Assembly: GCA_015178975.1 (NCBI GenBank)
Contig: WHVD01000037.1
Span: 434,001 to 498,000 of the forward strand
Source: Hysterangium stoloniferum
Lineage: Eukaryota; Basidiomycota; Agaricomycetes; Hysterangiales; Hysterangiaceae
Length of the DNA stretch: 64,000 nt
Reading direction: 5' to 3'
Notes under the pieces: generated by a model
What the model was told of the DNA's origin: nothing
The model's database searches: none
What the model saw: only the letters and a program-made list of their open reading frames with translations
Shown: one piece after another, positions 1 to 41,474 of the stretch
How positions within the stretch are numbered: position 1 is the stretch's first letter
How the letters are laid out: each line of letters starts with the position of its first letter
Position numbers and translations under genes: made by a program

Positions 1-2784
1 GTTCTGTTAGGGTCCATTCTAATTTATAATCTTCTCTTAATAGACACCTCCCCGATAGCTTGCAACACCTCGCAGTTATCAAAGGACATGGAGGAATCAG
101 AACCGGTTATATCGTAAACAATTCTATACTTGCATCTTGTTGTATGATCTCATTATCTCCTGGGGCAGTATTAGTAACCCTTCCGTTGCATGTGTTGAGA
201 TTATTGCCATGGATACCTCTCTCACACCCTCAACACCCGTTGTAAAGACGTCCGAACCGTAAGCGCCTATGTTTTCTTCTCGTGTAGGGACATTAACCAC
301 GGTGGGAACACCCCATAGGATCGCCGTCGTCGATAGCGTATGTACGGATTCTGGGTCCAAAGGTGCCGAGGCACAAGACCCATTTATAGAGAATGAGTGT
401 AATGCGCCGGTGAAAACATCCCCACGGTAAGTGATCACGCCTTTGTTCTGTGGAACAAAACTTGAACAGTTTTTGCTCCTCTAGCATCCAGGTGGCCCCT
501 CAGGTTGCTTCTCCCATCACCACCAGCAAGGGTCAGTCATCGCCGCCCACCACATGCCTACACGTCCCAGTGACGGAGACTGAAAGGTAGGAGACAAAGT
601 TTTTTTCCAGACAGTGGGCTTGATTACTTTATTCGATCGGACAGTTTCCCACCTGAGGGTAGCGTGGAACGACCAGGGATGGTCCAAATGAAGATGGATG
701 ACAATGGAACGAATGGGGTTGTCGCTGCCGGAGAGGAGAAACTTGTTGTGGAAGTAAGTCCCGCGAGTCTCATAACATGTCCCGTACTTAGCACGTCCGG
801 CAAACACAGACAATTACATCCGAAAGTCAATGTGGGAAAGACAGTCTACCGGCGACAGGGTCTTCACAGTCTGCCGAAACCCCTGTCCGTTCAACCAAGA
901 CAAAACGGTCTAGAAAGGAGAGGCTGCGTGCCCCAGGTGAAATAGATTTTGATGCGCTTAATAATTAGTATCTGATTTATATCGTAGCTAAGCAAGGGAA
1001 AGAAGGGAAAGTCAATGCAGAGTCATCTGAAATGTATGGAAATTATGCTGTTCTCCTTCGTCTGTTGCTCACGCTAACGGGATTCGCCTAGTGTCAAACC
1101 TTCCAGCGCTCAGGAAGACGTCAAGCCAAGATCTCCACGCCAATCGAACCCTGAGGACAGAGAAACCCTCCCTGTGTCCATTGCACAACCCGAAGAGTCG
1201 ACGCCAGGGGCACTGACACCCCTTGAACAGAAACATGTGGACATTGCCCTGGGTTTATTGGCCAAAGAAGACTCCCGTTATCCATTGAACTTCACTAGAA
1301 CATTCTTGGAGCACATGCTGCACAGACGCCTGCCACCGGAGAACAGCTCTCCTAGTTCAGAGACGACGAAACCTGTGTCCACTGGGTCATCTGCGGCGCC
1401 ACAATGGATCGACACAATGACTGCTGGCGAGGAAACGACTACGGGAAGTGGCGGGATAGTAGAGTCGGAAGTTCGGGCGAACAGCTCTCCTGGTCCAGAG
1501 AAGACGAAACCTGTGTCCACTGGGTCATCTGTGGTGCGACAATCGATCGACACATTGACTGCTGGGGAGGAAGCGGCTACAGGAAGCGGCGGGATAGTAG
1601 AGTCGGAAGTTCGGGTGTGTATAAAGATTTCAACATGCATTGAAATTAACTGATTTTGTGCATTAAATGGAAAGGCCGGTCCCAGAGACAACGCTGTCGC
1701 ACCTCTTTCGCCGGTATCACTCCTAGACACGGTGCAGGCGGGCTCCACTGCAACGGAGGCGCAGGAAGGGAACATTGCGTCGGTAACTTGTTCTACCAAT
1801 ACAATCTACGAAGCGCCTCCCCTAGACATCCCTACTTCACTTGCCTCGCCAGAATTACTTCTAGAGGTGGCGCCTCCCCTAGACATCCCTACTTCACTTG
1901 CCTCGCCAGAATTACTTCTAGAGGTGGCGCCTCCCCTAGACATTTCTACTTCACTTGCCTCGCCAGAATTACTTCTAGAGGTGGCGCCTCCCCTAGACAT
2001 CCCTACTTCACTTGCCTCGCCAGAATTACTTCTAGAGGTGGCGCCTCCCCTAGACATCCCTACTTCACTTGCCTCGCCAGAATTACTTCCAGAGGTGGCG
2101 CCTCCCCTAGACATCCCTACTTCACTTGCCTTGCCAGAATTACTTCTAGAGGTGGTGGAGACAACTGCTTGTATTGGCACGCCTTCCCGATCAGAGTTTG
2201 AATGCGATTCATTTTCACAACTCGCTACAGTGCATGTGGTGATCGACGAGGATATCGAAATGTTGGACGCATATCCGTCTGATGCCTCAGTTGAGCCAGA
2301 GAGTGCTCCCGAAGATGAATACGTATACATGGACGTTGACCCTGAACCATTGGTGAACCATTACTACGATTTGAACCCTCCAAACCACTCTTACGTATAC
2401 ATGGACGTTGACCCTGAACCGTTGGTGAACCATTACTACGATTTGAACCCTCCGAACCACTCGAACCCCCAAAACCAATTTTCACCATCGGGGTCCACAT
2501 CAAGTTACGCTCCGTATGCTGCCCAGCATTCCTTACAAACTTTTTATCCAAATTCCAATTTTGGCTGCAGTGTAAATGGTGATCCACAGTACTCGGTTCA
2601 ATATCAGCATCCCTCACATTCTTGTTATCCAAATTCCCATTTTGGATATGGCGTAAATGGTGATCCACAGTGCTTGGCTCAGTACCAGCATCCCCCACAA
2701 TCTTGGTATCCAAATCCCCATTTTGGCCATGGCGTAAATGGTGATCCACAGTACTTGGCTCCATATCAAACACAACTCTGGTAA
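1..2784 (+). CDS. Repeat-rich hypothetical protein, left copy, 5' end outside the window
   Basis: I do not recognise the family. Likely exons lie near 60-113, 171-259, 331-430, 484-586, 629-753, 810-954, 1091-1614 and 1675-2784, joined in one frame through GT-AG introns, with a TAA stop at 2782-2784. The protein is Ser/Thr/Pro-rich and built of internal repeats. They are a roughly 45-residue unit twice (SSETTKPVSTGSS type), a 19-residue APPLDIPTSLASPELLLEV unit six times, a 24-residue unit beginning YVYMDVDPEPL twice, and a roughly 27-residue unit with NGDPQY three times near the C-terminus. A basic stretch (TKTKRSRKERLR) could be a nuclear signal, which is inference. The first exons seen in the right copy fall outside this window. 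No catalytic motif is visible. Confidence 0.6.
1813..2154 (+). repeat. 57-bp coding tandem repeat, six units
   Basis: Six nearly identical 57-bp units each encode APPLDIPTSLASPELLLEV with only a few base changes. Since 57 is a multiple of three, copy-number change keeps the reading frame. The mirror copy at 21160-21330 has only three units. Confidence 0.95.
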
Positions 2785-4866
2785 TACCCGAGCTGGACTA
2801 TGTATATATCATTACAATTTCAAGCGAGAACTAATGTCCAATCCGCACCTATCCGTGGTCATATTAACAGGCTTTGGTGATGGCAGTCTGTGGCTGCCAT
2901 GATCACTAGGTCACCATTGAGGTACAAACACAATCTACATTCAATGTCCCTGGCATATTGCTAATGTGGCTCCTAGACTTTTTTCTCATATAGGCGTTGG
3001 TTGATCCATCTATCCTTACCTTATAGCGTTAAAAAAGAGTTGCCGGTCAACTAGCATCTATTCACCATTGAGGTACTAACATCCCAATCTTCGGCTTTCC
3101 CAATTTTCCTCATTCATATTTAATTACAATTCCACAGGGCCTGCAACCCTGCAATAAATGGGATTGCAGTCACTCACGCCAACCATCGACGGGTTAGGCA
3201 TGACAGCCTGGGGCTGTCATGATCAAACAGTTGTTATCCAGGTTCACTACATTTTTTTATTGGTATAGCTTTCAAAGTATCTGATTGTCTGTAATAGATC
3301 AGGACTACCTCATGCTGGAATGGCGAACTGTCGATAAGTTTAGGCATGGCAGCAGGGGGCTGCCATGATCACGTATTTGATAAAAAGGTTTTGTCATATA
3401 TTGGATTCATGTGTGAGAAAACGTCTAACGTACAATGGTAGCATATACGTTTCTAAAATCATCGAGGTGTAGCACAGCCAGGCAGCATATCAGTAGGGCT
3501 GTCACGATCAGTCGCTCATCAGTGAGGTATTTCCGTGTCATTGTATGCTTTGACAAATTTACCTACCTGCTTTATCAGGTTAATATACCAAGCTTTAACC
3601 CCCCGGAAAGTGGCGAAGAGGGGACTGAGTTCGGTCGGTCAGAGCCTGCCAGAGCCATGTTTTGGGAGTGAAGCGGGTTGGATCAGATGCCAGGATTGGA
3701 GGTGAGACTGAATCTTATATGACCAGATTTGGATCTTTGCCTCAGCTAAGAGATTTTTTGTAAAGGACGATCACAATGCTATCACCACATCGCACTCGTT
3801 CTCAGTTATGCCACCATCATTTCTTCCCATGCCCATCCATTCCTCCCCATAGTCGACGAATGGATCCCCGACGGCAACCACATGACGCATAACTGGCCTT
3901 GACCATGGGCTGCTATTCTCCTACTGAGGACAGCTTTACGTTTGCCCACTGGCACATTATCCCATCTGTGTGACCTTGTCGCTACCAATGACGCGGTGAT
4001 GTGACAAATCGGTTCGTGTCAGTCACTCCATCAGGCGTTAATCAGTGAACTTCCGAATTCGCACGGGAGGTCTTACGTCTACGATGAGGAATGGTTTATT
4101 TATTGTCGCCAATGTAGGTTATGGCGCCCTTACCGCCACAAACAGAAGGTGCTGAGGAGAGTCCTCTGACGCTTGAACACCGATTGTGACATATTGTGAT
4201 CCTTGTTTCTTGATGTACATGCAATTGTATTATGTCATTTATCTCGTTTCTTTTTCCTTTTTCAACTATATAATTCCTTGGGGTATCCTTCTCCAATTCT
4301 TTTGATCAATATCATATCTTTCACCGCATGTTTCCATCGTCTTACTGGCGATTTCCCTTGTGCTAGGCTAGTGTTTACGTTATGAACCAGATGGCGAGGG
4401 AGCTTAATATCACTTCAACTGGAGAAGCGTGGAAGGCCCGAAACAATACACATTGTATACATGGGGTGATTCACGGAGGTTATATCACACTCAGCCTCCA
4501 CCAAGGATCCTTTGAGATTTCGGATGGGCTTTTGGGGGTCAATACAACTGGAAACATCCCATTTTGGTATTTTTCTGCATGGTTATCCAGTCATACCCAT
4601 ACCCAATCCCAACTTGAACAGACGCCATCACTTATATACTACATGCCAACGTAGCACTGCAAGTATTTCTTTCACTCCCTTCAATACCATGACATCCAAA
4701 TGTGATCGCATGATGCAGAGGACATCGCTCATAGAATGTAGGCGTACGTGAAATCTCGGAGTCTATGAACATCAAAATATGCTGAAGCTGTTCTATAGAG
4801 CGGCTCGTCGCTCGTAATCGTCTAAGGTCACTCTACACACGACCATGATGCTCCGATATGATAATA
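2785..4866. other. Non-coding spacer between the hypothetical gene and the REI1 piece
   Basis: About 2.1 kb with only short, frame-incoherent open stretches. It contains the four hairpin motifs and, from about 3640 to 4520, the segment that recurs inverted at 7842-8645. Its mirror is 18463-20529. The A/T-rich sequence and lack of splice-compatible frames argue against a gene. Confidence 0.6.
2878..3513. repeat. Series of four GGCAGC...GCTGCC hairpin motifs ending in ATGATCA
   Basis: Four imperfect palindromes occur near 2878-2908, 3199-3225, 3343-3371 and 3476-3513. The cleanest reads GGCAGCAGGGGGCTGCC followed by ATGATCA. The others swap G/A and C/T at paired positions (GACAGC with GCTGTC), so the stem pairing is kept while the sequence varies. 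Two units are followed by an AGGTAC- or GAGGTA-type stretch. The region lies between the stop of the hypothetical gene and the convergent REI1 piece and has no convincing reading frame. Confidence 0.75.
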
Positions 4867-5632: not shown

Positions 5633-5639
5633 CGTGTAT

Positions 5640-7842
5640 TAAGCGCCTGTTCAGCTGCACGACACCTGCATATTTACGTTTTCGCGAACCGGCTGGTGAA
5701 GCCAACATTTTTTGAAGATCTATCCCATGTGTATCTAGATGCAAATACATAAGTTAATGCCCACACATGTGTTCAGATCGTGGCAAACCTTGCTTGCTAT
5801 TTAAGCATCCTCCACCTCATCATCATTAATATGAAACCTTTATCCTTTTTTCTAGATCGGTATTAAGGTCATAATGTCCAACCTTGTACCCGCCAATAGC
5901 AGATATTTTGGGAACTGTAAGAGATAGCACATACCAACTGTCACTCCTTCTGACTTTTATAACAGCAACAGCAGCCTCAGAAAATGCGGACTACAAAGAT
6001 TCAAGCACCACCTGTGAGCCACCCCGTGTCCTTATTTACCTATGTTGCTCCTAATAGCCCGTTCCAGGTTACCCCGGCTTAGATAGCGAAAACCCTTTTA
6101 TCTCACATCCTTACCATACCTCCAGCGCCTCATCAGTGCACTATGAGTGAGTCTCACCTTTCACGTGTAAGTTTCTCTCTACCAGTCAGAGTCGATTTAA
6201 ACGATAGGCCCACCATGTATCATAGGGATCTTCACAATTCTATGACGAATTCCCTGACCCGACCGAGGAAATTAATATAGATAGTAAAGTGCAAGAATAT
6301 GAATCTGAGACTCGTGAGTGGGTATTGTAATGCATATAAGGTGGCAGGAAGCCCTTAATGACTCTCCGAGCAAATGGGGTTCCGCTGACACGACAGCGAT
6401 CGAAGTAAACAACGAGGCGTGTTCCCTGGGCAAAAGAAAATAAAGTCAAATTAGCGATTTTGCTATCTCTTACGCGAACGCTCCACGACTTAAGCTGGGC
6501 CCACCAGCATCCCCGGAACGGAAGCCATCGCACATAGTGACATTCATCAAATATATTTTGATAAACATCTTTCATGGGGTTGTCAATGGGAAATCGTCGG
6601 GTTAACTTCCTCAGGGCGTACACAGAGCTATGAAGACATCACCTTGTCCAGTTTGAAGGATCTTCATGGAAAATCCAACGAAGTTGGTGCTCCAATGGTG
6701 GAAAACCTTCTGTGTGCCCGAGCTCAGAGCTTCATACACCGTGAAGTCTACGAAGAGGCCCATGCAAAGGAACCTACCTGCCAACAAGGCATGGAATTAT
6801 TAATGATGATGTATACGACCATCAATCAACGTATTGGGTAGAAGGATGCACGGGTAGAACTTGACAGGGAGGAAGAACATCTCAAAGAAGACACCCTTAG
6901 TGGTCTTGGCGGTAAAAAATGCTCCAGATGAATGGTACGGTGGGAAGATTGCTTTTATCGCCAAGCTTCGATAGAAAGAAGCCAAAAAGCCCCTGTATCA
7001 CCTTGAGTTACAGCCTCCAAAAATAAGTACTTCTACGTGCATCTCGCGACGCAGGGAATGTTTTCGATTAATGCGCATCTCTATCCCCGATTCTAAACTG
7101 TATCAGAGTAATAACGGTGAGTACGATGATGTTCGGAAGGTAAAGAAAGTTAACTGCTTTACAGGCGTTCTCGCCTATTTCAAGAATGATTTTATAATTA
7201 ATGGACGCATTTTTCGGCCATTTTATGCCAAAGAGCATGCTGTGTTTCTAATCCAGCTTGATTACATCTATAAAGATGGTGTCGCGGTGCATCACCCTCC
7301 ATTTGGAATGATTTCCTTTGATGAATTCCTGAAGTGGCATAATTCAATGCCACTAAATAAAGATTAGGCAAGTGCACGTTCTTCGCATTTCTCATCACCA
7401 GATCCATCAATTCCTTTTATTGGGGGGGGGGAAGGGATGGCACTGACCGCTCCTTGTTTCCGTTGGGTTTTTGCGCTTATACTCACATCCCCACAGCCAC
7501 TCTCCAAGTCGTGTGCTCGGGTGGTGCTCGGGCTATCCAATTCTGCTCCAGGACCAGAGTTGCCACGAGAAAACATGAAGTTCATAGACGCCAATATCTC
7601 TCTACCTAGATGTCTGCCAATTCTTCATAGATTCACTGGCTGGACAACGGGCGATTGAGCATGCACACAAACCAGAATCTAAAGATATCGTCACCGATGG
7701 TGCAGGGTTTGCTAGTTATTCGGTATTCACCGCCAGTAGATACAAATTCAAATGCCGTGCGCTATTCAATTTAGGATGTTCGGTGCCAAGGTTTGATCCA
7801 GCGCTGTTATGAGTTAACACCGTTCTTTGGTGGAGGCTGAGT
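5640..7842 (+). pseudogene. Inverted, decayed copy of the RdRP promoter and 5' half
   Basis: This block is the reverse complement of about 38940-41245. It contains roughly 230 bases of upstream DNA, the start codon (5874-5876, MSNLVPA), several exons with their introns, and ends in the exon encoding YKFK...FRMFGAK. It stops before the GGDYDGD catalytic motif. Small indels break the frame. One example is about 45-50 bases missing near 6530, where the parent encodes HATILYEGKNLPM; another is a shortened stretch near 6115. Introns are retained, so copying was DNA-mediated. It could still be transcribed from the copied upstream region, but no functional polymerase can result. Confidence 0.9.
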
Positions 7843-8645
7843 GTGATATAACCTCCGTGAATCACCCCATGTATACATTGTGTATTGTTTCACGCCCCCC
7901 AAGCTTCTCCAGTTAAAGTGATATTAGGCTCCCTCGCCATCTGGTTCATAACGTAAACAATAGCCTAGCACAAGGGAAATCGTCAGTAAGAGGAGGGAAA
8001 CATGCAATGAAAGATATGAGATTGATCAAAAGAACCGGAGAAGCAGACCCCAAGGAATTATATAATTGAAAACGGAAAAAGAAACGAGATAAATGACACA
8101 ATACAATTGCATATACATAAAGAAACAAGGATCACTACAAGTCACGATCGGTATTCAAGGGTCAGAGGATTCCCCTTAGCACCTTCTATTTGTGGCGGTG
8201 GGGGCGCCATACCCTACGTTGAAGACAATAAACCATTGCTCGCCATAGACCCAAGACCTCAACGCCTGATGGAATGACTGACACGAACCGATTTGTCACA
8301 TCACCGCGTCATCGACAAGGTCATGGATGGGATAATGCGACCAGTGGGTAAACGTAAAGCTGTCCTCAGTAGGAGAATAGCAGCCCGTGGCCAGTTATGC
8401 GTCATGTGGTTGGCGTTGGGGATCCATTCGTCGACAATGGGGAGGAATGGATGGGCATGGGAAGAAATGATGGCGGCATAACTGAGAAGGAGTGCAATGT
8501 GGTGATAGCATTGTGATCGTCCTATACAAAAAATCTCCTGGCTGAGGAAAAGATTCAGTCTCACCTCCAACCCTTGCATCTGATCCAATCTCCCGAAACA
8601 TGGCTCCGGCGGCGTCTGACCGACCTCTTCGCCACCTTGGGGTTG
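7842..8645 (-). repeat. Third-generation partial copy of the duplicated spacer
   Basis: The sequence from GGTGGAGGCTGAGTG to CTCTTCGCCACCTT matches 18825-19705 in the same orientation, and therefore 3640-4510 inverted. It carries its own substitutions and small deletions (for example near 8260, where a stretch of about 25 bases is missing). It directly abuts the RdRP fragment on its left. Homology ends at about 8645. Confidence 0.88.
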
Positions 8646-9048
8646 AGTTGCAATCATTCCAAACGTACGGGCCTTCCCGGGAACCAGGATACTGGTGGCT
8701 TCTTGTAAACTCTCGGTTTCATTTTTTTCATGATAATGTAGATCAACAGATATCTACGCAGTGTGACATCTTGTAAGCCAGAATTCAGCGAAGCGTTGCT
8801 TGACACGTACACTGACGAGGAAGTCATATATCATATCAACAATCACCTGCTCTAATTACCACGCGCACGGAATCAATTCGAATTCTTTCACATCTGGTGA
8901 CGACGTCGATTCAATGGCCCCAGAATTACCGTGACGAAATTAGTGCGATGGAGAAGGCACGCGGTTGGTGCCAATGTGCCCACCGTACGCCCCATAGTAC
9001 CTCTTCCAGAAGAATTGTCATGGAACACATGGAGAGACTCCCTCCACC

Positions 9049-9261
9049 TACGACGCTCTGGTTCATCAAGACCTAGCCCCACGAAACATGATTCTTGATT
9101 CAAGTGGCCATTTATGGCTTGTTGACTGCGGTCGTTCAGGCTTCTATCCTGTTTGGATGGAATACTCGGAGATGGAAGACATGAGTCGGCGATGCCATAG
9201 CTGGCTGCTGGAAGTCTCACGGCGTGGTGGGATCGCATGGGCTGGTCTCTATTTTGTTTGA
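9049..9261 (+). pseudogene. Fragment of an aminoglycoside-phosphotransferase-like kinase
   Basis: An open frame of about 70 codons encodes HQDLAPRNMILDSSG followed by LWLVDCGRSGFYPVWMEY. This matches the catalytic-loop and following aspartate region of the APH/choline-kinase-like family common in fungi, whose usual form is HGDLxPRNI...DWxxAGxYP. Upstream, from about 8930, family-like pieces (VGANVPTVRPIVP, RIVMEHM) occur in different frames, with no clean splice to connect them. The N-terminal lobe and the C-terminus are not found. I read it as a relic; a short multi-exon gene cannot be fully excluded. Confidence 0.5.
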
Positions 9262-10230
9262 TTGCTTGTGACTACTCTCGCCTGCATTCCAAAGGGCAAA
9301 CTGCGCTTCCCGTTGTACGACAACTCTCACTGAGATACAGGCTGGAGAAGCCGGTGCACTCTGCGCGCTATTGACCCAACTTATATGTTATATCCGGTTC
9401 TTTGTGGACGTGGATTTATCCAGTATATTCCTCATATTTGCTTTTTGCAAGCTTCTTAACCAGATATGCCATGCCAATACTCCATTCAGCTCACGAAAAT
9501 TATCAATGTATACCCACTACAACCTGGCACCTGGCACTTCTCTGGTGATCTCTCTTTTTCTGGATGATGATATTGAGCATGTGTGCAACGCTAATGGGTG
9601 CTTTGATTGAACCTCTTTTTGTAATCCTGGTAGAGTTTTTGCTCTCGACATGGCATGACCATACGTTCTTCCCACCGAAGCACAGATATTATGACACTCA
9701 CTTGACATTCAGGTTGCTCTGGTTGCTAGTTTGATCTTCCGTCAGGCTCGCCAGGATCATTGGCGGCGACCTCCACTCGAATTGAAAAGTTGGAACTTGT
9801 CGTCAAAAAGAGAAACCAATGGTTGGTCGGCGGCAATGTCTTTCCGCCGACCTTGCCACCGTCGTTGTCCAAATTGTGGTGGCTAACAAAATTGAATTGG
9901 GCGACGACTGCTGAAAGATCTGACAATCAGAACATGTATGTGCTCAATTATCATTACTCGTGATGTGCTTCTTGACAGCTTCAACTTCAGCACTAGTATT
10001 GTCACTCATTTCTAAAATATGGGTGGTGACCCGCTTCAGAGTATAAACAATACAAGTGCAAGTGAACTGCGCGTGTGGGTGCCTTGTCAATTACATCATT
10101 TTGATCAACCACCACCTAGCTCAGTTTATCTCTCTTTTCCTTTACGCTTCCCATCAATAGAATATCAGGATACATGTATCAACGGTTAGTCGCTGGATTT
10201 ACTCTACCCTGCCTTTATTCCATCAGCTTT
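9262..10230. other. Intergenic stretch, nothing recognised
   Basis: About 1 kb between the APH-like relic and the 3' end of the signal peptide peptidase gene. Short open frames are present, but none has a recognisable domain or splice logic. A pyrimidine-rich run lies near 10125-10150. Confidence 0.5.
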
Positions 10231-11855
10231 CTAATTTTTTGTATTTTCTACCATGTCCTCGTTATCATTATGATATTCCGCTGTATTTGGTGCGGTTACG
10301 CCAGCAAGTTGGGTATCCTCGGCTTCAGCTTCTGCCTTGGTTGGATGTAAAACGAAGGTAGTCTGCTTGTCAGTCGAATTCTCTTTGATTTGCTCTGCCT
10401 CGTCTTTCCATCTCCAAACTTGTTTTAGCTCCCCGCGAAGAAGGCCAGTAAGTAAGAATGACAGCATGCAGGCAGGGCTAATAAGACCGATTCTCGGTGG
10501 TCAATTCTTGCAACGACTTGTAAGGACGTACCTGAGATATAATAGTGCTGGCTGTGCTGCCTTCCAGGTATGCATAACTGCCATTGTGGTAACGAGCCCT
10601 AGTATGTATGATACAAGTGCTGCGGTGAAATATGGTTTGCCAAACGAGCGGTACGGGTTTTTGTGAGAAGACGCGAAAAGGTCACGACGAAGGGCCAGGG
10701 TAATGAATGCACCAGGAATCACGATATCGCCCAAACCAAGCATGGTATACCCTTTCGATGAGGAAAAGTCACTTGATTTTGGCCATAGTATTTTAATCGG
10801 TGCGTCCAGTGTTGTGGCTACTTTAACCATCTAGAAAGAGAATACTTTAGCTTGACTAAGTTAAGACTAAGAGTAAACTTACCACATCCGTTCCAAAAAC
10901 CCACCAGACGTCATATATGAATAAGCCGGCTAGCAGGATGGTCGCGGTCTGGAAACTATCTAGTTTGAGAAGGCAGAGTGCATTAAACGAGAAAGAAAGG
11001 CCCAGGATGTTCGTGATTAGTGCAGGCTTGGTCTCTGCACTGGATATCATGTATAGCGCTGAGGGCATTACCGCGAAGGGTAAAAGGAAAGGAACGGGGG
11101 TCCGAAAAGAGAGAGACAGGAGTTCTGTAATGTCTTGAATGTGAAGTCAGATCGAACTTTCAAAAGATAATCCACCTCTTTGATTTTTGGTTATCAATAT
11201 GTTCAGTTTCTCAAATGACCTCCAGATGTTCTGACCGAGGATGGTTCGTAGTAAAGCCGTTGACGTCTGTTTCCTTCGGGAATTAGCCTCAGTTTATACT
11301 GGTAGGTCTTTAACATTAATCACCTTCCAGACACTTCCGATACCTATCAGAGCAAAGTACCAGCCTGGCGAGAGTTGTTATGTTGATACATGTACAACGC
11401 GGCCGGGCCTTGTAACGAACCAAGAATCCAATTAACCCATTCCTAATCCAGCTTTGTGAGAATAGTAGCGAAGACACAAAAAATAAGAAAAGACAGACTG
11501 CGCCAAGATATTTGAAGATCAGATACATCCCAAATAATGCTACAGAGGCCAATACGGGGAAAAGATAGGCGTCTGACGAGGAAAGCCTAGTCGACAGATA
11601 AACAGAAGCGACCACAAACATGCAATATTGTACTAGCACCTCTCATCTTCATCCCTCTCATCTTCGTATTCATCTTTCTCTGGGGACTGGCCTTGAGGCA
11701 CCGCTTTTTTAGGAGGAGGCTGCATATTGAGCGTTCTAAGGAGGCATCAAAGAGATATATTATTGACTAACTGGTAATGAGCCCCATGCACCGGCATAAA
11801 TAGAAAGAGTCGCCAAAGATAATAATCCAGCGTATGCAAGGAATATCTCTTCCAT
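10231..11855 (-). CDS. Signal peptide peptidase (intramembrane aspartyl protease)
   Basis: This ER-membrane aspartyl protease cleaves remnant signal peptides and tail-anchored substrates within the membrane. The two active-site motifs are visible, YD in LFIYDVWWVFG and GLGD in MLGLGDIVIPGAF, as is the family PAL signature in QPALLYLSPAC after joining two exons. The N-terminus (MEEIFLAYAGLLSL) is followed by an acidic loop (EKDEYEDERDEDER), then by membrane segments DAYLFPVLASVALFGMYLIF, EWVNWILG, WYFALIGIGSVWK and FRTPVPFLLPFAVM. The C-terminal tail is hydrophilic and glutamate-rich (KAEAEAEDTQ). At least eight exons with about 50-nt introns are needed. The start was chosen as the first ATG before a clean membrane segment. 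Its right neighbour RPS18 is on the same strand. Confidence 0.92.
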
Positions 11856-11997
11856 GCCGCTACACTAGAATGTTGCTAACTTGGTATAAAGGGACGTGTC
11901 ACTGACCAACAGTTTGGACTTGCGAGTTATGTAAGTACCGCTAAGAATATACTCAGAAAGACCTAGTGTAGCACACATGTGAGAAACAGATTAGAAT

Positions 11998-12022
11998 ATA
12001 GATAGATAGATAGATAGATAGA
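11998..12022. repeat. GATA microsatellite
   Basis: About six GATA units in tandem in the spacer between the signal peptide peptidase start and the RPS18 stop. The rest of this 470-base spacer shows no gene. Confidence 0.9.
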
Positions 12023-12323
12023 CCGGTAAAAATATATTCTAGATGTGTGGAATTCAGACAGCACTGGCATTGGAGGGACCTTGTCTACACTTTAGAGTCT
12101 TTCAAAATTCATATAATTATTCAGGAAACAGATCTTAGACATAAAATACCATAAAACTGGCTTATCACCCGGAAGTTAATACGTGATCATACGTCCTATT
12201 GCATAGCGAAAAGACATGTTCATGATTTTGTAGGTAAACAAGTTTGCAATGCATATTAATGTATGTGGATGTTCTCGGCCAGTAACATGTGCCACGGTAC
12301 TGATATCAGACACATCGAGGCAT

Positions 12324-12957
12324 CTAACCACGCTTCTTCGACACACCAACGGTTTTGCCACGACGACCTGGATATAATCGTAAGCAGCAAGTCCCACGAA
12401 CAACGCAGAACTACATACCAGTTGTCTTCGTGTGCTGACCCCTGACACGGACACCCCAGAAATGACGCAGACCTCTGTGTGCCCGAATTTTCTTCAACCG
12501 CTCCAAATCCTCACGTAATTTCGAGTCAAGAGCGTTTGAGAGGATTTGTGAGTCCTTGCCATCTACGATGTCCTTTTGTCTGTTCAAGAACCAGGTGGGG
12601 ATTTTAAACTGAGTGGGATTTTGGATAATGGTGACGATACGCTCTAACTCATCGGAGTTGAGGTCACCAGCACTAGTAAGCAACAGATTAATGTACATAG
12701 CAAAACTTGGCCAAGGAAGTACGACCTACCGCTTTTTGAGATCAACATCTGCTTTCTTGCAGACGATGTTGGCATACCGCCGACCGACACCTTTGATTTC
12801 CGTCAAGGCGTACATGATTTTACGTTTGCCATCCACGTTAGTGTTGAGCAAACGCAAGATGTGCTGATGGGTTAAATTTCAATGACAAAGTGTGATATTG
12901 ATATAACGCTAAGCATACTTGAAATTGTTGATGGGCTTCGGGTACAACGAGAGACAT
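12324..12957 (-). CDS. RPS18: 40S ribosomal protein S18
   Basis: Component of the small-subunit head (uS13 family) that contacts the decoding region and the B1 bridges. Exons join to give [13 protein letters not shown], then [56 protein letters not shown] and [17 protein letters not shown], ending [13 protein letters not shown]. These are the diagnostic helix-two-turn-helix and basic C-terminal segments of eukaryotic S18. Expected length is about 155 residues, as usual. Several short introns interrupt it, one before the last 13 codons. The start ATG fits the conserved N-terminus. Confidence 0.97.
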
Positions 12958-13479
12958 GGCGTTGAGAGAAAGGGGCTGTTTACCTGTCGAAGCATTCCGA
13001 ATCAGCGTCTTCCAGAGGTCATCCAAATGACAAGGTGTCCATCCATCCCCACTTTAACGCAACATATCCCATATAACAGCCTAATGCAATATACCACGCA
13101 ATGCACTCCAGAGATGGTAAAAATTCTCACCTTTCTTTATTGAACAAGGGCGTCGTCGCAGTCACCAGTGAGTAGAACAAGTACGGGGGTTGCCGAATCT
13201 GCTCCCGCACCGAAAAGTCCACCAGCGCCAATTGAATTATTATTATTACTGTACTATGTACTTTAAGATTTCATATTATGTAGCAATGGGATTCAACAAA
13301 TTGATCATTAATGAGCATCAAATTCTACCTAGATACAGAAATAATCGCCCAAGCAGAGCGTAACAAGAGCTTCGGTACAAAAACATTTCCAAGCTATACT
13401 TTCAAACCAAGAGACAGCTGAAAAAAGAGATGGATGGCATAATGTTGACATTTTTTGTTGAAAATGGCGTGCCAGTATT

Positions 13480-14212
13480 TTAGTCCACTAGTTGTCCCCC
13501 AGCGCCGTCTCCTCTACGGAGCCTGGAAATGCCCCGCCAAATTACAACTAACAGTAATATCGTGGTGATAATCCAGCACGCCCAAGCAAAACCTGAGATA
13601 ATATCAACAAAAACAATGAAAATCTAAAAGCCAACATGCCTTCAAGTGCGTTGAGCTGATTGCAGTAAGTCAGAGGAAAGGCTATGCGGCTGTCGATCCT
13701 AATTAATCTGCGATGAAAAGAAGACGCAAGGAAGCTTACGAGCAGTTGTGACCACCTCCGAGGGTCACTGTGATCGCAATGGCACCTGAAAGCCAAAGTA
13801 TCCATGTCAGGGACAGGCTGGGGCAGGCATTCAGTCCATGTGGTGTGACCAAAAAATAATAACAAAAACAGGAAAATCAAGCACATACAAGATTCCGTGG
13901 CTTGCGACACTTGTCATAACACTGCCATTATTCGGGGAATGAAGGAACAAGAGCATATAGATCGTGGCTCCAAGTACAGTCCACCAAGAGACGAACACCA
14001 AGAAGTACGTCCTCTGGCGTAGCGCACTCCATGCCCTGGATGGAACTGAGCTATACCTGGCTGCCAACCACGAAGATATACACCCTTCGACAATTGCAAA
14101 AAGGATGAGAAAACCGAACAAAACTGTATGAGGTAAGTCTCTAGATATTTGTTCAGGAGAATTGCCTGAACTGACTTGAATGACCTTTACGGATGTGAGT
14201 ATCGGGATTCAT
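13480..14212 (-). CDS. Four-helix membrane protein, MARVEL-like
   Basis: Spliced exons give MNPDTHILLFGFLILFAIVE at the N-terminus, then a helix TYFLVFVSWWTVLGATIYML, a third around LSLTWILWLSGAIAITVTLG, a luminal or extracellular HNC/YCNQL region, and a last helix WIITTILLLVVIW followed by a short basic tail (RGISRLRRGDGAGGQLVD). Four hydrophobic segments, short loops and conserved cysteines resemble fungal MARVEL-type proteins, but I assign no function. The last intron appears to use a GC-AG donor (GAAG|GCATGT). It is divergent from the carrier gene, with 190 bases between the starts. Confidence 0.7.
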
Positions 14213-14399
14213 CCTGTGGCTTCGAGTAAGAATCGGTATACGTTATGTATCGTTGCAAGTTTAACGTGAAAAGTCGTAAGTTGCGTCCAGAAAAGGCTGT
14301 CGTCTCAGTAATAACGCGGTGACGTCACATCGTTCATCACGCAGCTCCCGCAGTCCACAGCGCAGGATCAACTCACATTGGACTGACACAAACCACATC

Positions 14400-15664
14400 A
14401 TGAAGTTTTTCGCCGTTTTGTTTGCAGTTATCTTTGGCACTCTCGCTATATGTCTCGCTGAAATTATTACTTTGCCCTTCGGTGCGTATCTCGGTCAGAG
14501 CCTCTGAAAGGTTGAGGCTCATGCCTTCTTAGTTGGTGTTCTTGTACGATTCCGGGCCAACTATTCCCCCAAGGTTCGTACCTGTCGTTTAGCAGCAACG
14601 AAATAATAAGCCAAGGCTCCTGAAACGTCTAGGGCCTTCAACTGGATGCTGAAGGTGGTGCACAGCCTCATGCTGGCCCAGTGGTGACTTCTTATTTTGC
14701 CATGTTTAAGAGAGTGCTTCAGTTGGAGGTGGGCAGCAAGACTACTTTTTTTATGGCCTTTTCTCATTGATTCTAGGGCTGGAAAGGCTTGTACAAAGGC
14801 TTGAGTAAGCCAGTATCGAATCCCGTTGCAGAATGTGTCTAAAAATGCTCTTAGTGCCCAGTGCCATCTCAACTTTCGTCGTGTCAGCTTTCCTATGGGC
14901 GTACATAGGAACAATGGTCCCTCGTGGTACTGGTCGTTATAGTGCCCCAGCTGGTTCTCCCCTGGAAATATTTGTGTACAGTGTTTTCATAACATTGCTT
15001 GGACTACCTGTCACCATCCTCATTAACCGGTAAGCCCCCTTTTAAGACTTATACCTTGCTAGTGTTCGTCAATTATGATTTTAAAAGTGCCATAACGACG
15101 CCATATTATCTTCCTTGGTTCAACGTCAAATATGCCCTCGGACGACTTTTCACACCAACCGAGTTGCGCAAGCCGTGGTTGTTATATCTTACCCCTGGGC
15201 TTCTCGGTGCCAAGGTGATGCATGTAGGCTACATAGTTCTCATTTTGAGAACCTTCAGATCCCTGCTTCTTCCTTCGGTCGACAAGATTTCCTCTGGGGA
15301 CATGGAGCGTGGCTCTGGAATGGTCATTCCTCCGGACTTTACCCCTTTTCGTATTATCACATATCTGGTCATTGCGGGCCTTAGCACCGTTATTCTGTGC
15401 CCCCTGGAAGTCATTACCACACGACTCTCACTCCAGCGAAATCATCCGTCATCGACTGCATTCGAAGCAGTACCACAAGAGGAGCAGGAGCCTGAGAACC
15501 AATATGCCGGAAGCGAGGATGTGATTGGTTTGCGCAATGAATTTGACCCTTATGTAGGATTTACCGATGCTGCGAAGCGCATGGTTGATGAGGAAGGATG
15601 GAGGGCTTTGTATCGGGGCTGGTGGATCACTATGTTTGCAGGTCTGATGAGTGCCTTTACATGA
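14400..15664 (+). CDS. Mitochondrial carrier family protein
   Basis: Six exons (14400-14481, 14533-14573, 14633-14728, 14777-14804, 14855-15029, 15088-15664) join in frame to about 332 residues. Carrier features are a first repeat with PFVGVLVRFRANY and GWKGLYKGLMP, and a later repeat with PLEVITTRLSLQR, matching the Px[DE]xx[KR]x[KR] signature, followed by EEGWRALYRGWW. The N-terminus (MKFFAVLFAVIFGTLAICLA) is one hydrophobic helix. An in-frame ATG at 14319 would add 27 residues. The substrate cannot be told. Signatures are weaker than in classical transporters, so a structural outer-membrane relative such as the Ugo1 type is an alternative. Confidence 0.82.
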
Positions 15665-15873
15665 TCGACGAAAACAATTTTTTGTGGAGTATGTATTCCG
15701 CAGATAGGCTATATCCGTGTTTCCATATTATCACATTATCCAAGGGTTTATTTATATCAATATTATGTCTTTCCGGTAGTTAAAACAAAAAATATATATT
15801 GGAACAAAGAATATATAGTAGATACAAAGTATGGATGGGGCGCTTATTTGGCATCTTTCTTTTGAGCTGCACC

Positions 15874-16621
15874 ATGGCGTCCCCGTCCCCAGTACCGACG
15901 ACTTCTGGTGTTACCTCCAATGGCGATGCACCCCAAACGAACAGACACGCCCTTACACCCCTTGAACGTCAAAGAGCGCAACTAACAAAGTTGCTGAAAG
16001 ACCCCTCGAAGCCTGTATATATTCCTCCACCACCAAAAGAGAAGACTATTCGCCCGCCCCGGGAAATGATGAAGAATGTACAAGGAAGTAGTGCAGGGGC
16101 GGGAAGCGGGGAGTTTCACGTATACAAGGCCAATAGGCGCAGAGAATATGAGCGACTGAAACTAATGGAGGAAGAGACGAGAAGAGTGAGCACTTGACGC
16201 ACTTTACTGTGGCGGTGCTGAGAATTTTTGCCAGGAAACTGAAGGCGAGGCATTTGCAAGGAAACAGAGAGAACGGGAGGCGTTGGCTGAGGCGAAGACT
16301 TTCAAGAACCGAGCGAAACGCATGAAGAAGAAAGAACGGGCGAAGGGCAAGGGGACCCAAGGCGGTGCTGGTGCTGCAGAACCAACAAGTTTGAAGGATG
16401 ACAATGAAGGTGCCCCTATAAAGAAGCGACGGCTTGTGAACGGGAGTGAGATCGTGTTTCGGTTACGTGACGAAGAGAGTGATGAGGACGACGAGAATGG
16501 GCTTTCCACAAGTCGAGGAGAGTGTGAGGGATTACACTTGGCCGAAGAATCAAGGGAAACTGCTCCGGTGGTCCCAGTTGCTATTGTTGACCAGAAGATC
16601 ACCATTCATGATTCGGACTAA
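15874..16621 (+). CDS. PRKRIP1-like spliceosomal protein (DUF1168)
   Basis: Two exons (15874-16185, 16235-16621) give about 232 residues. The family signature is clear: PVYIPPPPKEKTIRPPREMM, then KNVQGSSAGAGSGEFHVYKA, then the RRREYERLKLMEE helix and a lysine-rich segment (FKNRAKRMKKKERAKGKG). PRKRIP1 homologues bind double-stranded RNA and sit in the catalytic spliceosome; that role is family knowledge. The C-terminal third is acidic and low in complexity (DEESDEDDENG). The ATG at 15874 starts the protein directly before the conserved part; in-frame codons upstream look like leader sequence. Confidence 0.92.
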
Positions 16622-16776
16622 CCACGTTCTGTAGCTCTGGTTGTGTTATATTGATATTACTATGAAGCAACTATTATCCAAATTGATAACAATTCCTGGA
16701 AGACTAAACGTATTTCGCGCCGCGTGGGAAAAGAAAAGAATGCTTGATAAGCTTGCACACCCTCATCGAAACAACC

Positions 16777-18462
16777 ATGTCTGTTGCCACACAAATAATC
16801 ACTGAGAATGGTCAACCTCTTTTTACATGCATGTCGTGCTCTATTGGCTTTTCAACAGCTGAAGATCAACGTGAGTCCCCGCCCAAGCCGCCAATGTCTC
16901 TGGCGAGCCTAATACATCCTAGGCATTCACTATCGCTCTGACCATCATCGTTACAATATGAAGGTGACCTTTCTGTTAGCAAAGGAATGCTGGATATCTA
17001 ATATGATGTGTTTCAGCGGCGGGTTGCTTCATTACCACCCATTAGTGCTGCAGTTTTCAACCAAAAGGTTCTCCAACGGCGAGCGGAAACCGCCGTTACC
17101 ACATCGCCGAAAGGTGCGACGTGCGAGATATGCAGGTAAGGGCTTATTATTTGGACTGTATGTATCATCGAATCTCACAAGGCTGCTCCAAACAGTAAAG
17201 TGTACACGACTGAAAATGCATACCGTTCGCATGTGAATTCAAAGAAACATAAGGAGAGTGAGCTGAAAGCAAGCATGAAGCCCAAATCTGTGGATTCTCC
17301 CGTCCCGACAGAAGTCAATGGATATGTTGACCCCGTAGACGCTCCAAAGCCACAGTCCCTTCCACCAGCTGAGGTCGCCGAATCGTCTTCGTCTTCAGTC
17401 GTCAAAAAACCTGCGGCTCCAGCTTTGACTGTCGATGAAGACGCAGACGAGGATGAAATCAATGATACTATTGATGCCAAGATTGCTGCAGCACGATCAA
17501 GACTTACTCCGAGTTCTTGTCTATTCTGCCCCCATCAGTCGTCGTCGATTGAAAGTTCACTAGGTCACATGGCCGTCAGGCATTCATTTTTTGTACCAGA
17601 TATGGAGTATATGGACGATTTGCCTGGGTTACTGGCCTATCTTGGCGAGAAAGTGGCCGTGGGGAACGTATGTCTCTTCTGCAACGGCAAAGGGCGCGAA
17701 TTTCGCACCATCGAGGCGGTTTGGAAACACATGAACGACAAGGGCCACTGCAAAATTGCTTACGACTCAGAACGAGACCGCCTGGAAATTTCGGACTTTT
17801 ATGATTTCTCCTCGAGTTATCCGGACGCCGTCATGCAAGGCAAGAAGGTGACCAAACCCAAGAAGAAGCCTACTGAGGAAGTTGAACAAGATGAATGGGA
17901 GGATATCGATGACGATGGGGAAGAAGCTGACGAAGTCGTCGATGAAGAAGATTTGTCGGAAGAAGATTTGGAAGACTTACCCGGGGCCCAGATTACCTAT
18001 GGTGACACAGAGTACGAACTAGTGCTACCTTCTGGTGCACGAATAGGTCACAGAGCCATGCGACGATACTACGCCCAGTCATTCCGGACGTCGCGCCTTG
18101 CTCAGGAGGATCCCAAATCCGGCGCAGCTATCGTGAGGAAGTTGCTCGCCGACAAGCGATCAGACCTTGTCCCGGTGAAAGGTGGTTTCGGAGCCTTTGG
18201 AAGTGGCACGCAAGTTATCAAGGCGCGCAATCGGGGAGAAGCGAAGGAGGCTGGGCGACATATCAGAGAGTTCCGTGACCAAAAGCGGAAAGAGGATTAT
18301 AAGACCCGTGTCGCATTCGTGCATAACCACCAAAAGCACTTCCGTGATCCATTATTACAGGTAATTTATATTGTTTATTCTCGTGATGAATTTAGTCTAA
18401 ATAAATTTTCTTTCCCAGTAATTGGATCGCTTTTTCTTTCTTTTTTCTAGATATGCACATGA
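16777..18462 (+). CDS. REI1: REI1/ZNF622-type cytosolic 60S maturation factor
   Basis: Five exons (16777-16870, 16923-16963, 17017-17135, 17196-18360, 18451-18462) give about 476 residues. The N-terminal C2H2 finger is CMSCSIGF...HYRSDHHRYNMK. A second is CEICSKVYTTENAYRSHVNS. Later fingers are CLFCPHQSSS...HMAVRHSFF and CLFCNGKGREF...HMNDKGHC. An acidic stretch (about residues 300-325) precedes the conserved tail KKRKEDYKTRVAFVHNH-like and HFRDPLLQ, with a tiny last exon adding ICT. The family recycles Arx1/Alb1 and inspects the exit tunnel of pre-60S particles in the cytoplasm. The 3' half from about 17690 lies inside the right arm of the inverted duplication, so this is the parental, intact copy. 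Confidence 0.95.
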
Positions 18463-20529
18463 TATTATCATATCGGAGCATCATGGTCGTGTGTAGAGTG
18501 ACCTTAGACGATTACGAGCGACGAGCCGCTCTATAGAACAGCTTCAGCATATTTTGATGTTCATAGACTCCGAGATTTCACGTACGCCTACATTCTATGA
18601 GCGATGTCCTCTGCATCATGCGATCACATTTGGATGTCATGGTATTGAAGGGAGTGAAAGAAATACTTGCAGTGCTACGTTGGCATGTAGTATATAAGTG
18701 ATGGCGTCTGTTCAAGTTGGGATTGGGTTTGGGTATGACTGGATAACCATGCAGAAAAATACCAAAATGGGATGTTTCCAGTATTGACCCCCAAAAGCCC
18801 ATCCGAAATCTCAAAGGATCCTTGGTGGAGGCTGAGTGTGATATAACCTCCGTGAATCACCCCATGTATACAATGTGTATTGTTTCGGGCCTTCCACGCT
18901 TCTCCAGTTGAAGTGATATTAAGCTCCCTCGCCATCTGGTTCATAACGTAAACACTAGCCTAGCACAAGGGAAATCGCCAGTAAGACGATGGAAACATGC
19001 GGTGAAAGATATGATATTGATCAAAAGAATTGGAGAAGGATACCCCAAGGAATTATATAGTTGAAAACGGAAAAAGAAACGAGATAAATGACATAATACA
19101 ATTGCATGTACATCAAGAAACAAGGATCACTATATGTCACAATCGGTGTTCAAGCGTCAGAGGACTCTCCTCAGCACCTTCTGTTTGTGGCGGTAAGCGC
19201 GCCATAACCTACATTGGCGACAATAAATAAACCATTCCTCATCGTAGACGTAAGACCTCCCGTGCGAATTCGGAAGTTCACTGATTAACGCCTGATGGAG
19301 TGACTGACACGAACCGATTTGTCACATCACCGCGTTATTGGTAACGACAAGGTCACACAGATGCCAGTGGGCAAACGTAAAGCTGTCCTCAGTAGGAGAA
19401 TAGCAGCCCATGGTCAAGGCCAGTTATGCGTCATGTGGTTGCCGTCGGGGATCCATTCGTCGACGATGGGGAGGAATGGATGGGCATGGGAAGAAATGAT
19501 GGCGGCATAACTGAGAACGAGTGCGATGTGGTGATAGCATTGTGATCGTCCTTTACAAAAAATCTCTTAGCTGAGGCAAAGATCCAAATGTGGTCATATA
19601 AGATTCAGTCTCACCTCCAATCCTGGCATCTGATCCAACCCGCTTCACTCCCAAAACATGGCTCTGGCAAGCTCTGACCGACTGAACTCAGTCCCCTCTT
19701 CGCCACCTTCCGGGGGTTAAAGCTTGGTATATTAAGCTGATAAAGCAGGTAGGTGAATTTATCAAAGCATACAACGACACGGAAATACCTCACTGATGAG
19801 CGACTGATCGTGACAGCCCTACTGATATGCTGCCTGGCTGTGCTACACCTCGATGATTTTAGAAACGTATATGCTACCATTGTACGTTAGACGTTTTCTC
19901 ACACATGAATCCAATATATGACAAAACCTTTTTATCAAATACGTGATCATGGCAGCCCCTGCTGCCATGCCTAAACTTATCGACAGTTCGCCATTCCAGC
20001 ATGAGGTAGTCCTGATCTATTACAGACAATCAGACACTTTGAAAGCTATACCAATAAAAAAATGTAGTGAACCTGGATAACAACTGTTTGATCATGACAG
20101 CCCCAGGCTGTCATGCCTAACCCGTCAATGGTTGGCGTGAGTGACTGCAATCCCATTTATTGCAGGGTTGCAGGCCCTGTGGAATTGTAATTAAATATCA
20201 ATGAGGAAAATTGGGAAAGCCGAAGATTGGGATGTTAGTACCTCAATGGTGAATAGATGCTAGTTGACCGGCAACTCTTTTTTAACGCTATAAGGTAAGG
20301 ATAGATGGATCAACCAACGCCTATATGAGAAAAAAGTCTAGGAGCCACATTAGCAATATGCCAGGGACATTGAATGTAGATTGTGTTTGTACCTCAATGG
20401 TGACCTAGTGATCATGGCAGCCACAGACTGCCATCACCAAAGCCTGTTAATATGACCACGGATAGGTGCGGATTGGACATTAGTTCTTGCTTGAAATTGT
20501 AATGATATATACATAGTCCAGCTCGGGTA
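18463..20529. other. Non-coding spacer between convergent REI1 and the hypothetical gene
   Basis: Mirror of 2785-4866. It contains the four hairpin motifs (listed separately) and the segment that recurs at 7842-8645. REI1 ends into it from the left and the hypothetical gene from the right, so both transcripts converge here. No coherent coding frame was seen. Confidence 0.6.
19804..20436. repeat. Hairpin motif series, right copy
   Basis: Four palindromes mirror those at 2878-3513, at about 19804-19835, 19943-19970, 20090-20117 and 20408-20436, each preceded on this strand by TGATCATG or TGATCGTG. One loop differs from the left copy (GCAGCCCCTGCTGC here, one base longer loop there) while the stem remains paired. 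Confidence 0.75.
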
Positions 20530-23516
20530 TTACCAGAGTTGTGTTTGATATGGAGCCAAGTACTGTGGATCACCATTTACGCCATGGCCAAAATGGGGAT
20601 TTGGATACCAAGATTGTGGGGGATGCTGGTACTGAGCCAAGCACTGTGGATCACCATTTACGCCATATCCAAAATGGGAATTTGGATAACAAGAATGTGA
20701 GGGATGCTGATATTGAACCGAGTACTGTGGATCACCATTTACACTGCAGCCAAAATTGGAATTTGGATACGAAGTTTGTAAGGAATGCTGGGCAGCATAG
20801 GGAGCGTAACTTGATGTGGACCCCGATGGTGAAAATTGGTTTTGGGGGTTCGAGTGGTTCGGAGGGTTCAAATCGTAGTAATGGTTCACCAACGGTTCAG
20901 GGTCAACGTCCATGTATACGTAAGAGTGGTTTGGAGGGTTCAAATCGTAGTAATGGTTCACCAATGGTTCAGGGTCAACGTCCATGTATACGTATTCATC
21001 TTCGGGAGCACTCTCTGGCTCAACTGAGGCATCAGACGGATATGCGTCCAACATTTCGATATCCTCGTCGATCACCACATGCACTGTAGCGAGTTGTGAA
21101 AATGAATCGCATTCAAACTCTGATCGGGAAGGCGTGCCAATACAAGCAGTTGTCTCCACCACCTCTAGAAGTAATTCTGGCGAGGCAAGTGAAGTAGGGA
21201 TGTCTAGGGGAGGCGCCACCTCTAGAAGTAATTCTGGCGAGGCAAGTGAAGTAGGGATGTCTAGGGGAGGCGCCACCTCTAGAAGTAATTCTGACGAGGC
21301 AAGTGAAGTAGGGATGTCTAGGGGAGGCGCTTCGTAGATTGTATTGGTAGAACAAGTTACCGACGCAATGTTCCCTTCCTGCGCCTCCGTTGCAGTGGAG
21401 CCCGCCTGCACCGTGTCTAGGAGTGATACCGGCGAAAGAGGTGCGACAGCGTTGTCTCTGGGACCGGCCTTTCCATTTTATGCACAAAATCAGTTAATTT
21501 CAATGCATGTTGAAATCTTTATACACACCCGAACTTCCGACTCTACTATCCCGCCGCTTCCTGTAGCCGCTTCCTCCCCAGCAGTCAATGTGTCGATCGA
21601 TTGTCGCACCACAGATGACCCAGTGGACACAGGTTTCGTCTTCTCTGGACCAGGAGAGCTGTTCGCCCGAACTTCCGACTCTACTATCCCGCCGCTTCCC
21701 GTAGTCGTTTCCTCGCCAGCAGTCATTGTGTCGATCCATTGTGGCGCCGCAGATGACCCAGTGGACACAGGTTTCGTCGTCTCTGAACTAGGAGAGCTGT
21801 TCTCCGGTGGCAGGCGTCTGTGCAGCATGTGCTCCAAGAATGTTCTAGTGAAGTTCAATGGATAACGGGAGTCTTCTTTGGCCAATAAACCCAGGGCAAT
21901 GTCCACATGTTTCTGTTCAAGGGGTGTCAGTGCCCCTGCCGTCGACTCTTCGGGTTGTGCAATGGACACAGGGAGGGTTTCTCTGTCCTCAGGGTTCGAT
22001 TGGCGTGGGGATCTTGGCTTGACGTCTTCCTGAGCGCTGGAAGGTTTGACACTAGGCGAATCCCGTTAGCGTGAGCAACAGACGAAGGAGAACAGCATAA
22101 TTTCCATACATTTCAGATGGCTCTGCATTGACTTTCCCTTCTTTCCCTTGCTTAGCTACGATATAAATCAGATACCAATTATTAAGCGCATCAAAATCTA
22201 TTTCACCTGGGGCACGCAGCCTCTCCTTTCTAGACCGTTTTGTCTTGGTTGAACGGACAGGGGTTTCGGCAGACTGTGAAGACCCTGTCGCCGGTAGACT
22301 GTCTTTCCCACATTGACTTTCGGATGTAATTGTCTGTGTTTGCCGGACGTGCTAAGTACGGGACATGTTATGAGACTCGCGGGACTTACTTCCACAACAA
22401 GTTTCTCCTCTCCGGCAGCGACAACCCCATTCGTTCCATTGTCATCCATCTTCATTTGGACCATCCCTGGTCGTTCCACGCTACCCTCAGGTGGGAAACT
22501 GTCCGATCGAATAAAGTAATCAAGCCCACTGTCTGGAAAAAAACTTTGTCTCCTACCTTTCAGTCTCCGTCACTGGGACGTGTAGGCATGTGGTGGGCGG
22601 CGATGACCCACCCTTGCTGGTGGTGATGGGAGAAGCAACCTGAGGGGCCACCTGGATGCTAGAGGAGCAAAAACTGTTCAAGTTTTGTTCCACAGAACAA
22701 AGGCGTGATCACTTACCGTGGGGATGTTTTCACCGGCGCATTACACTCATTCTCTATAAATGGGTCTTGTGCCTCGGCACCTTTGGACCCAGAATCCGTA
22801 CAGACGCTATCGACGACGGCGATCCTATGGGGTGTTCCCACCGTGGTTAATGTCCCTACACGAGAAGAAAACATAGGCGCTTACGGTTCGGACGTCTTTA
22901 CAACGGGTGTTGAGGGTGTGAGAGAGGTATCCATGGCAATAATCTCAACACATGCAACGGAAGGGTTACTAATACTGCCCCAGGAGATAATGAGATCATA
23001 CAACAAGATGCAAGTATAGAATTGTTTACGATATAACCGGTTCTGATTCCTCCATGTCCTTTGATAACTGCGAGGTGTTGCAAGCTATCGGGGAGGTGTC
23101 TATTAAGAGAAGATTATAAATTAGAATGGACCCTAACAGAACGTCACATACCTTCCTGCTTACTGGCCGAGGTGTCCGAGGCAACGCCACCTGATGCGCC
23201 ATCAACTTCGATCTTCCCGGTCCCAGCTCCCAGCTCACATTCACGAGGAACTGATTTGACAATAGTATTTACACCTTTAGGGAAAATCTACCAGGTGTTT
23301 GTCAGGCACTGTGACTTATCATAAAGTATATGGAACGAACATGCATCCGGGAGGCCGGCAATCTTCTCTGGACATTCAAGGTCTAAAAAAGATATATTAC
23401 AGATTCAATATTTAGTATGTGGAATGAAGGGTATTGAAACTCACGCTCGTGACTCCTTCTTGACTGACACCGATATTGACATCCGCAAAAACAGCAGCCA
23501 CGTCGTCAACTGACAT
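20530..23516 (-). CDS. Repeat-rich hypothetical protein, right copy
   Basis: Same gene as the left-edge copy, here with its 5' part. The probable start is the ATG at 23516 (MSVDDVAAVFADVNIGVSQE). The next exons, around 23290-23390 and 23155-23275 (KSVPRECELGAGTGKIEVDG), could not be joined without doubt: the two most natural frames disagree at the first two introns. From about 23085 downward the exon chain matches the left copy. This copy has three, not six, APPLDIPTSLASPELLLEV units; the 24-residue and 27-residue repeats are unchanged. Function is unknown; the protein is long, Ser/Pro-rich, probably disordered, with a basic KTKRSRKERLR patch. It converges with REI1. Confidence 0.6.
21160..21330 (-). 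repeat. 57-bp coding tandem repeat, three units
   Basis: Mirror of the six-unit array at 1813-2154, with three units. Single-base differences (LASSELLL in one unit) make it distinguishable from the left array. Confidence 0.95.
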
Positions 23517-23667
23517 GGTGATCTAAGGAGATATGCACTGAGAATCGACGGCTCTTAGGAATGTTTGGGATGACGAACATCATTATTTTTACTTCGCTCC
23601 TTGGGTTGGGGTAATGCCTAGAGTGGGTAATGCGTAAGTCCACTGCAAAACCCAGTGAGGAAGAGTA

Positions 23668-25126: not shown

Positions 25127-25240
25127 AAAGCAGACCAGCGCCTAACGTGGGTAGATTGACTAGATTATGTGAGATTCCTATATAAATAATCTAAATTTAG
25201 CTTCACTTGTAACTTTTTTGCAGGTTTTAATCCTCGAACA

Positions 25241-41001: not shown

Positions 41002-41474
41002 TATGACTTCAATGTTGATCTAGAAAAAAGAGCAAAGGTTTCATATTAATGAGATACAGGATGCTTAAATAGCAGAGGCATCCAAGCAAGCCTTGCCACG
41101 ATCTGAACACATGTCTGGACATTAACTTATGTATTTACATCTAGATACACATGGGATAGATCTTCGAAAAATGTTGGCTTCACCAGCCGGTTCACGAAAA
41201 CGTAAATATGCAGGTGTTGTCGAACTGCAGCTGAACAGGCGCTTAATACACTATCAATTGCATAATGGAGAAAAAAATATTCTTGTCCAATAAGAAAAGA
41301 GACCAATAAGAGAAGCATTACAGGATAAGGTGACACAAACAGTAATTGTATAGGAGGTAGCAGAGTCGAGATATGAGGACAAGAAAACAATAATACAGGG
41401 AGGTAGACCAAATGGTATCACACGACAGCACGAGAGGAGCCGCAAAAGTGAGATAGGATAGTAAGTAGGTTAGG

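Follow-up and report, generated by a model that had tools for sequence, protein, structure and literature searches.

Origin of a large inverted duplication that encloses housekeeping genes in Hysterangium stoloniferum

Two long, closely similar segments lie in opposite orientation on either side of a block of housekeeping genes in Hysterangium stoloniferum. This arrangement raises the question of whether the inverted repeat is the cause or the product of the present gene order, and whether the similarity of its arms says anything about its age. We analysed a window of 64,000 nucleotides (C301:434001-498000) together with its left flank, fetched from the same contig, whose bases carry negative coordinates counted leftwards from the window start. 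A single assembly (111 Mb in 554 contigs) was used throughout, and the copy numbers obtained by searching it are lower bounds. L and R denote the left and the right arm, P the arm segment 3098-4507, and P' a second, diverged copy of P (Table 1).

The arms and their contents

Self-BLASTN of the window pairs 1-1984 with 23142-21159 (99.4%, no gaps) and 1984-5633 with 21330-17692 (98.0%), both in inverted orientation. The large inverted duplication around housekeeping genes, proposed in the initial annotation, is therefore real, and it is longer than first noted: the outer edge given there was that of the window. With the left flank added, the match extends to -1235/24378, and it resumes past a dispersed repeat present only in R to reach -1379/24635. 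The full arms measure about 7.0 kb (L -1379..5633, R 24635..17692), with L protruding 1,379 bases to the left of the window (about C301:432622-434000), and at such lengths a chance match is not an issue. The sole large difference in their length, attributed from the start to a tandem-repeat change, amounts to 171 bases, i.e. three units of 57 bp. The dispersed repeat has at least 31 further matches in the assembly, at 87-92% identity.

Pfam matches in the spacer (Peptidase_A22B, Ribosomal_S13, Mito_carr and DUF1168) agree with the contents listed earlier, namely SPP, RPS18, a mitochondrial carrier and PRKRIP1, the last being the name that we presume for the DUF1168 gene. Near RPS18, a 43-bp stretch (12239-12281) recurs at many sites of contig C525, with 86-91% identity. 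The outer end of L adjoins the 3' end of an ERT1-like gene (PAS_13). The repeat-rich open frames of the arms, which we call gene X, gave nothing above the curated Pfam cut-off when they and the other arm frames were searched, and three weak hits below it. An X frame of 191 codons, compared between L and its counterpart on contig C551, has 3 silent and 11 changed codons; no constraint is visible, on a small count.

REI1 was identified through a PDB sequence match. Since the inner edge of R falls inside the uninterrupted REI1 frame and L holds 3' pieces only, it is R that still has its original neighbour on the REI1 side; on the ERT1 side this would be L. The piece in L is indeed damaged, as had been noticed: compared with the right copy, it has a stop in frame and has lost 2 bp at each of two places. 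The stop and one of the deletions are common to L and C551, and the other deletion occurs in L only.

Table 1. Coordinates of the features discussed, in window positions
Feature	Position	Strand	Remarks
Left arm L	1..5633 in window	+	gene X, P (3098-4507), truncated 3' REI1 piece
Truncated 3' REI1 piece in L	4879-5633	-	pieces of frame only
RdRP 5' piece beyond L	5634..7831	+	inverted copy of 38948-41251; frame 6975-7367 matches PF05183 below curated cut-off
P'-left	7824..8642	-	part of P', broken at G-run
Inverted segment, 16.5 kb	8643..25131	.	APH-like remnant, SPP, RPS18, carrier, PRKRIP1-like, REI1, R, P'-right
APH-like remnant	8718-9532		APH hit below curated cut-off
REI1 open frame	17140..18450	+	uninterrupted, 436 aa, crosses R inner edge (17692)
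Right arm R	17692..24635	-	about 98-99% identical to L
Dispersed repeat, 104 bp	24380..24483	.	inserted in R only; site empty in L, C551, C59
P'-right	24643..25131	+	remaining part of P'
RdRP (PF05183) gene	37429..41251	-	matches 37429-39311 plus upstream sequence; 38948-41251 akin to captured piece

Related copies on other contigs

The initial annotation presented the arms as a pair. The pair stands, but its members are not the only copies: parts of a rearranged unit occur on C551 and C59, and more distant relatives of its pieces (71-81%), mainly of P, of the stretch just before P and of one short piece further up, occur on C212. At the inner edge of L the REI1 piece is joined to a 5' piece of an RdRP gene, and this joint (5633|5634) is also present in C551, where positions 152798-161972 carry parts of the unit with changes of their own. 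C59:15859-21081 contains, in a row, the end of ERT1, the outer end of unit 1, the RdRP piece, P' and the outer end of unit 2; because of its internal losses (most of X and part of ERT1), it is an incomplete witness to the earlier order. As regards replication template switching, which predicts microhomology at the joints, those scored show none that is obvious at 5633|5634 and a short shared TTGTT at the ERT1 deletion in C59.

The shared joint also bears on the suggestion that the left arm is an artefact of assembly, against which the point changes between the arms had already been held to argue. An assembly in 554 contigs invites such a suspicion, but the 100 substitutions between L and R form a structured pattern and the joint recurs in C551, which has changes of its own; the arm is probably genuine, and we give hardly any credence to an artefact. 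The notion that C551 and C59 are allelic (second-nucleus) copies was rejected, as no near-identical second copy of either the spacer or 23143-42000 was found among the best matches scored, with shared pieces, repeats and short stretches set aside.

The RdRP pieces of L, C551 and C59 are 1.9-2.3% apart and differ by 7.3-7.7% from the RdRP gene, which is distinguished from its captured pieces by 131 sites of its own. This pattern argues for a single capture that preceded dispersal. About 145 bases of P' in L (7832-7979) are missing at that place in C551 and C59; a simple tree does not account for this stretch. Further RdRP (PF05183) matches lie on C29, C157 and C107, in addition to C301; on C107 three such genes apparently follow one another. 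None was found in 14 control genomes.

The C551 copy starts and finishes within P', and the two ends are separated by a gap of about 1 kb in P'. Its outer end is unit-2-like and further in it is mostly unit-1-like, as expected if recombination between the two direct X copies had yielded either a circle or a fragment of a longer array. C551 resembles a single circularly permuted unit, and an end-to-start joint is present; a fragment of a tandem array would have the same appearance. Transport of the unit to C301, C551 and C59 by a transposable element, such as a gene-capturing Helitron or a Pack-type element, would explain why pieces of several genes travel in one dispersed cassette. However, the copies in C551 and C59 are bounded at different points of the unit, no target-site duplication is evident in the alignments and one host-side comparison (a small sample), and the subset of open frames scanned gave no transposase hits; we regard such an element as quite unlikely.

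Contig C59 also carries, at about 16970-17531, a short palindrome with 18 bases between its sides, both of which match arm positions -745..-1004 (95% for the left side, which has the longer match, and 89% for the right).

The divided P' copy and the inversion

In L and R, and likewise in C551 and C59, P runs through the split point unbroken. The P' of the window, on the other hand, is divided at a G-run into one part beside the RdRP piece of L and another outside R, in opposite orientation. P'-right differs from the contiguous P' of C59 at 6/495 positions and from the P of L at 56/491; P'-left differs from the C59 P' at 51/710 (96% over 647 bases by BLAST) and from L at 81/822. The divergence of P' from P, about 10-13%, exceeds that of the arm ends, so that P' may be older than the arm ends suggest and the pieces of the unit may not share one date.

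The breakpoints thus defined (8642/8643 and 25131/25132) lie one inward of L, 3.0 kb from its inner edge, and the other 0.5 kb outside R. Reversal of 8643-25131 recovers the order of C59, relative to which about 13 bases are missing at the inversion joint, and both X copies then become direct repeats. Since the arms appear as direct repeats in the earlier order and the breakpoints lie outside them, they could not have caused the inversion, and the inverted repeat is most likely its product. Direct repeats do not give inversions; together with the position of the breakpoints, this makes breakage with end joining the likeliest mechanism.

Recombination between the two arms was considered as the cause: inverted repeats of such length and similarity commonly serve as its substrate, and the arms as they now stand could turn the spacer round. 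Yet it predicts both breakpoints within the arms and a whole P', whereas P' is split and the turned segment leaves one arm outside and takes the other inside, which renders this origin very improbable. Staggered breaks, by which the duplication and the inversion would arise in one event with inverted copies at both breakpoints, find an analogy in the model of PMC3355041, and inverted copies of DNA do lie near both ends of the inverted segment. However, the breakpoints fall in P' and just past it, outside the arms, and in C59 the two outer ends are in direct order and nothing interrupts P' at the split point, which argues that the duplication preceded the inversion. A one-event origin is thus unlikely, and we continue to favour an inversion of pre-existing direct repeats.

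The APH-like remnant near one breakpoint has a relative at C35:896810-897835 (72-84%), compared with which the window copy is short of roughly 270 bases. We considered whether the inversion had cut this gene and rejected the idea: the match of the relative begins 75 bases inside the breakpoint, hence the break was probably intergenic.

Gene conversion and the proposed order of events

L and R differ by 100 substitutions in 6826 sites (98.5% alike by substitutions). Transitions account for 62 of the 100, and 33 fall in a CpG of either copy; we make no claim of RIP-like mutation from these counts. The differences are unevenly distributed, with 35/628 at the outer end, 39/5564 in -750..4999 and 26/634 at the inner end. 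The best-scoring tract of low divergence, -759..5191, has 39/5763 (0.68% over about 5.8 kb); its score is reached in 0/200 permutations, while the arm ends differ by about 4% or more on both sides. Eleven of the outer-end differences (-1250..-1236) sit in a badly aligned repeat stretch; without them there are 89 differences and 24/614 at the outer end, the tract is unchanged, and the permutations again give 0/200. The clustering of the differences shows homogenisation of the central tract by gene conversion from arm to arm.

Given such conversion, the similarity of the arms cannot date the duplication, which undercuts the moderate age that had been read from it. The REI1 stop and frameshifts, which had seemed at odds with so high a similarity, are located in an unconverted arm end, and therefore very similar arms can coexist with a broken REI1 piece.

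When an outgroup copy is compared with the unconverted ends, C551 sides with L at the inner end and the outer end is mixed. In 5200-5633, L and R differ at 24/431 sites and L and C551 at 7/432; C551 equals L at 13/13 of the L/R difference sites in 5250-5499 and at 5/8 in 5000-5249. In -1354..-1023, C551 equals R at 8/8 such sites; C59a equals L at 5 of these 8, and there R, C551 and C59b agree. Further in (-976..-759), C551 equals L at 11/17 and R at 6/17 sites; in 4 of the latter, R is matched by C59a as well, which means that L alone changed there. The outer half of X has 11/2301 differences between L and R, 39/2300 between L and C551 and 36/2300 between R and C551. As C551 is 1.6-1.7% off in this region and 6% from both L and R in P, a single simple conversion is insufficient, and several directions or further exchange are needed.

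On the strength of these comparisons, we consider it highly probable that a tandem duplication was followed by an inversion, and that gene conversion took place between the copies. We infer an ancestral order ERT1-X-REI1-PRKRIP1-... and, up to the inversion, adjacency of 8643 and 25132. A tandem duplication, into which further pieces were copied, would have turned the ancestral order into ERT1-[X-REI1 3' piece-RdRP 5' piece-P']-[X-REI1-...]. Copies of the tandem arrangement would then have reached C59 and C551, common descent being shown by the shared joints and C301 being the presumed source. Subsequently, inversion of 8643-25131, joined at the G-run of P', flipped the second copy together with the housekeeping block, as shown by the P' that is split in the window and unbroken in C59. 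Conversion between the X copies evened about 5.8 kb per arm and spared about 0.4-0.6 kb at both ends; we infer the direction of each conversion. By divergence, formation of the unit (arm ends about 4-6%, RdRP piece 7-8%) would come first and dispersal (about 2%) second, with the inversion and the last conversion (tract 0.7%) following in no stated mutual order and with no clock applied. More tentatively, it is possible that the tandem unit shed circles by X-X recombination, one of which inserted at C551, and that the inversion put an end to the circles and brought conversion between the arms; if true, a switch of orientation alters the fate of a duplication.

Comparable cases have been described. 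In wine yeasts, a 17-kb Z. bailii segment spread via circles (Galeote 2011, PMC3053389); it resembles our unit in its differing arrangements at unrelated sites and in breakpoints of insertion that share hardly any sequence, if any, but our case consists of two partial copies within a single assembly, for which a fragment of a longer tandem array is no less possible. For the Drosophila mojavensis inversions 2h and 2q, which likewise have duplicated DNA on the flanks of an inverted segment, PMC3355041 proposes a one-event origin by staggered breaks, and it also reports breakpoints between pre-existing duplicates; in our case, by contrast, duplication came before inversion, and neither breakpoint falls within an arm. 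The human Y palindrome P6, with conversion tracts of 2,068 bp on average and over 9 kb at most (PMC3723533), is similar in that inverted arms are kept alike by multi-kilobase tracts. However, the arms of Y palindromes are over 99.9% similar according to the same source, whereas those described here are 98.5% similar, retain unconverted ends and were most likely direct repeats at first.

The class of event is thus ordinary, and its history is unusually readable: the locus gives a legible order of duplication, dispersal, and then inversion and conversion. It illustrates that arm similarity is a poor clock and that an inverted repeat beside an inversion need not have caused it. It is plausible that the present arms may still flip the housekeeping spacer, of which the one assembly shows no flipped form, and a putative hairpin RNA would require a 12-kb read-through across several genes.

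Two tandem repeats were encountered in addition to the 57-bp units: a 21-bp array of about 36 nearly identical units at C59:23556-24321, and a 15/45-bp repeat at 51254-51402 of the window, within an open frame of 405 aa.
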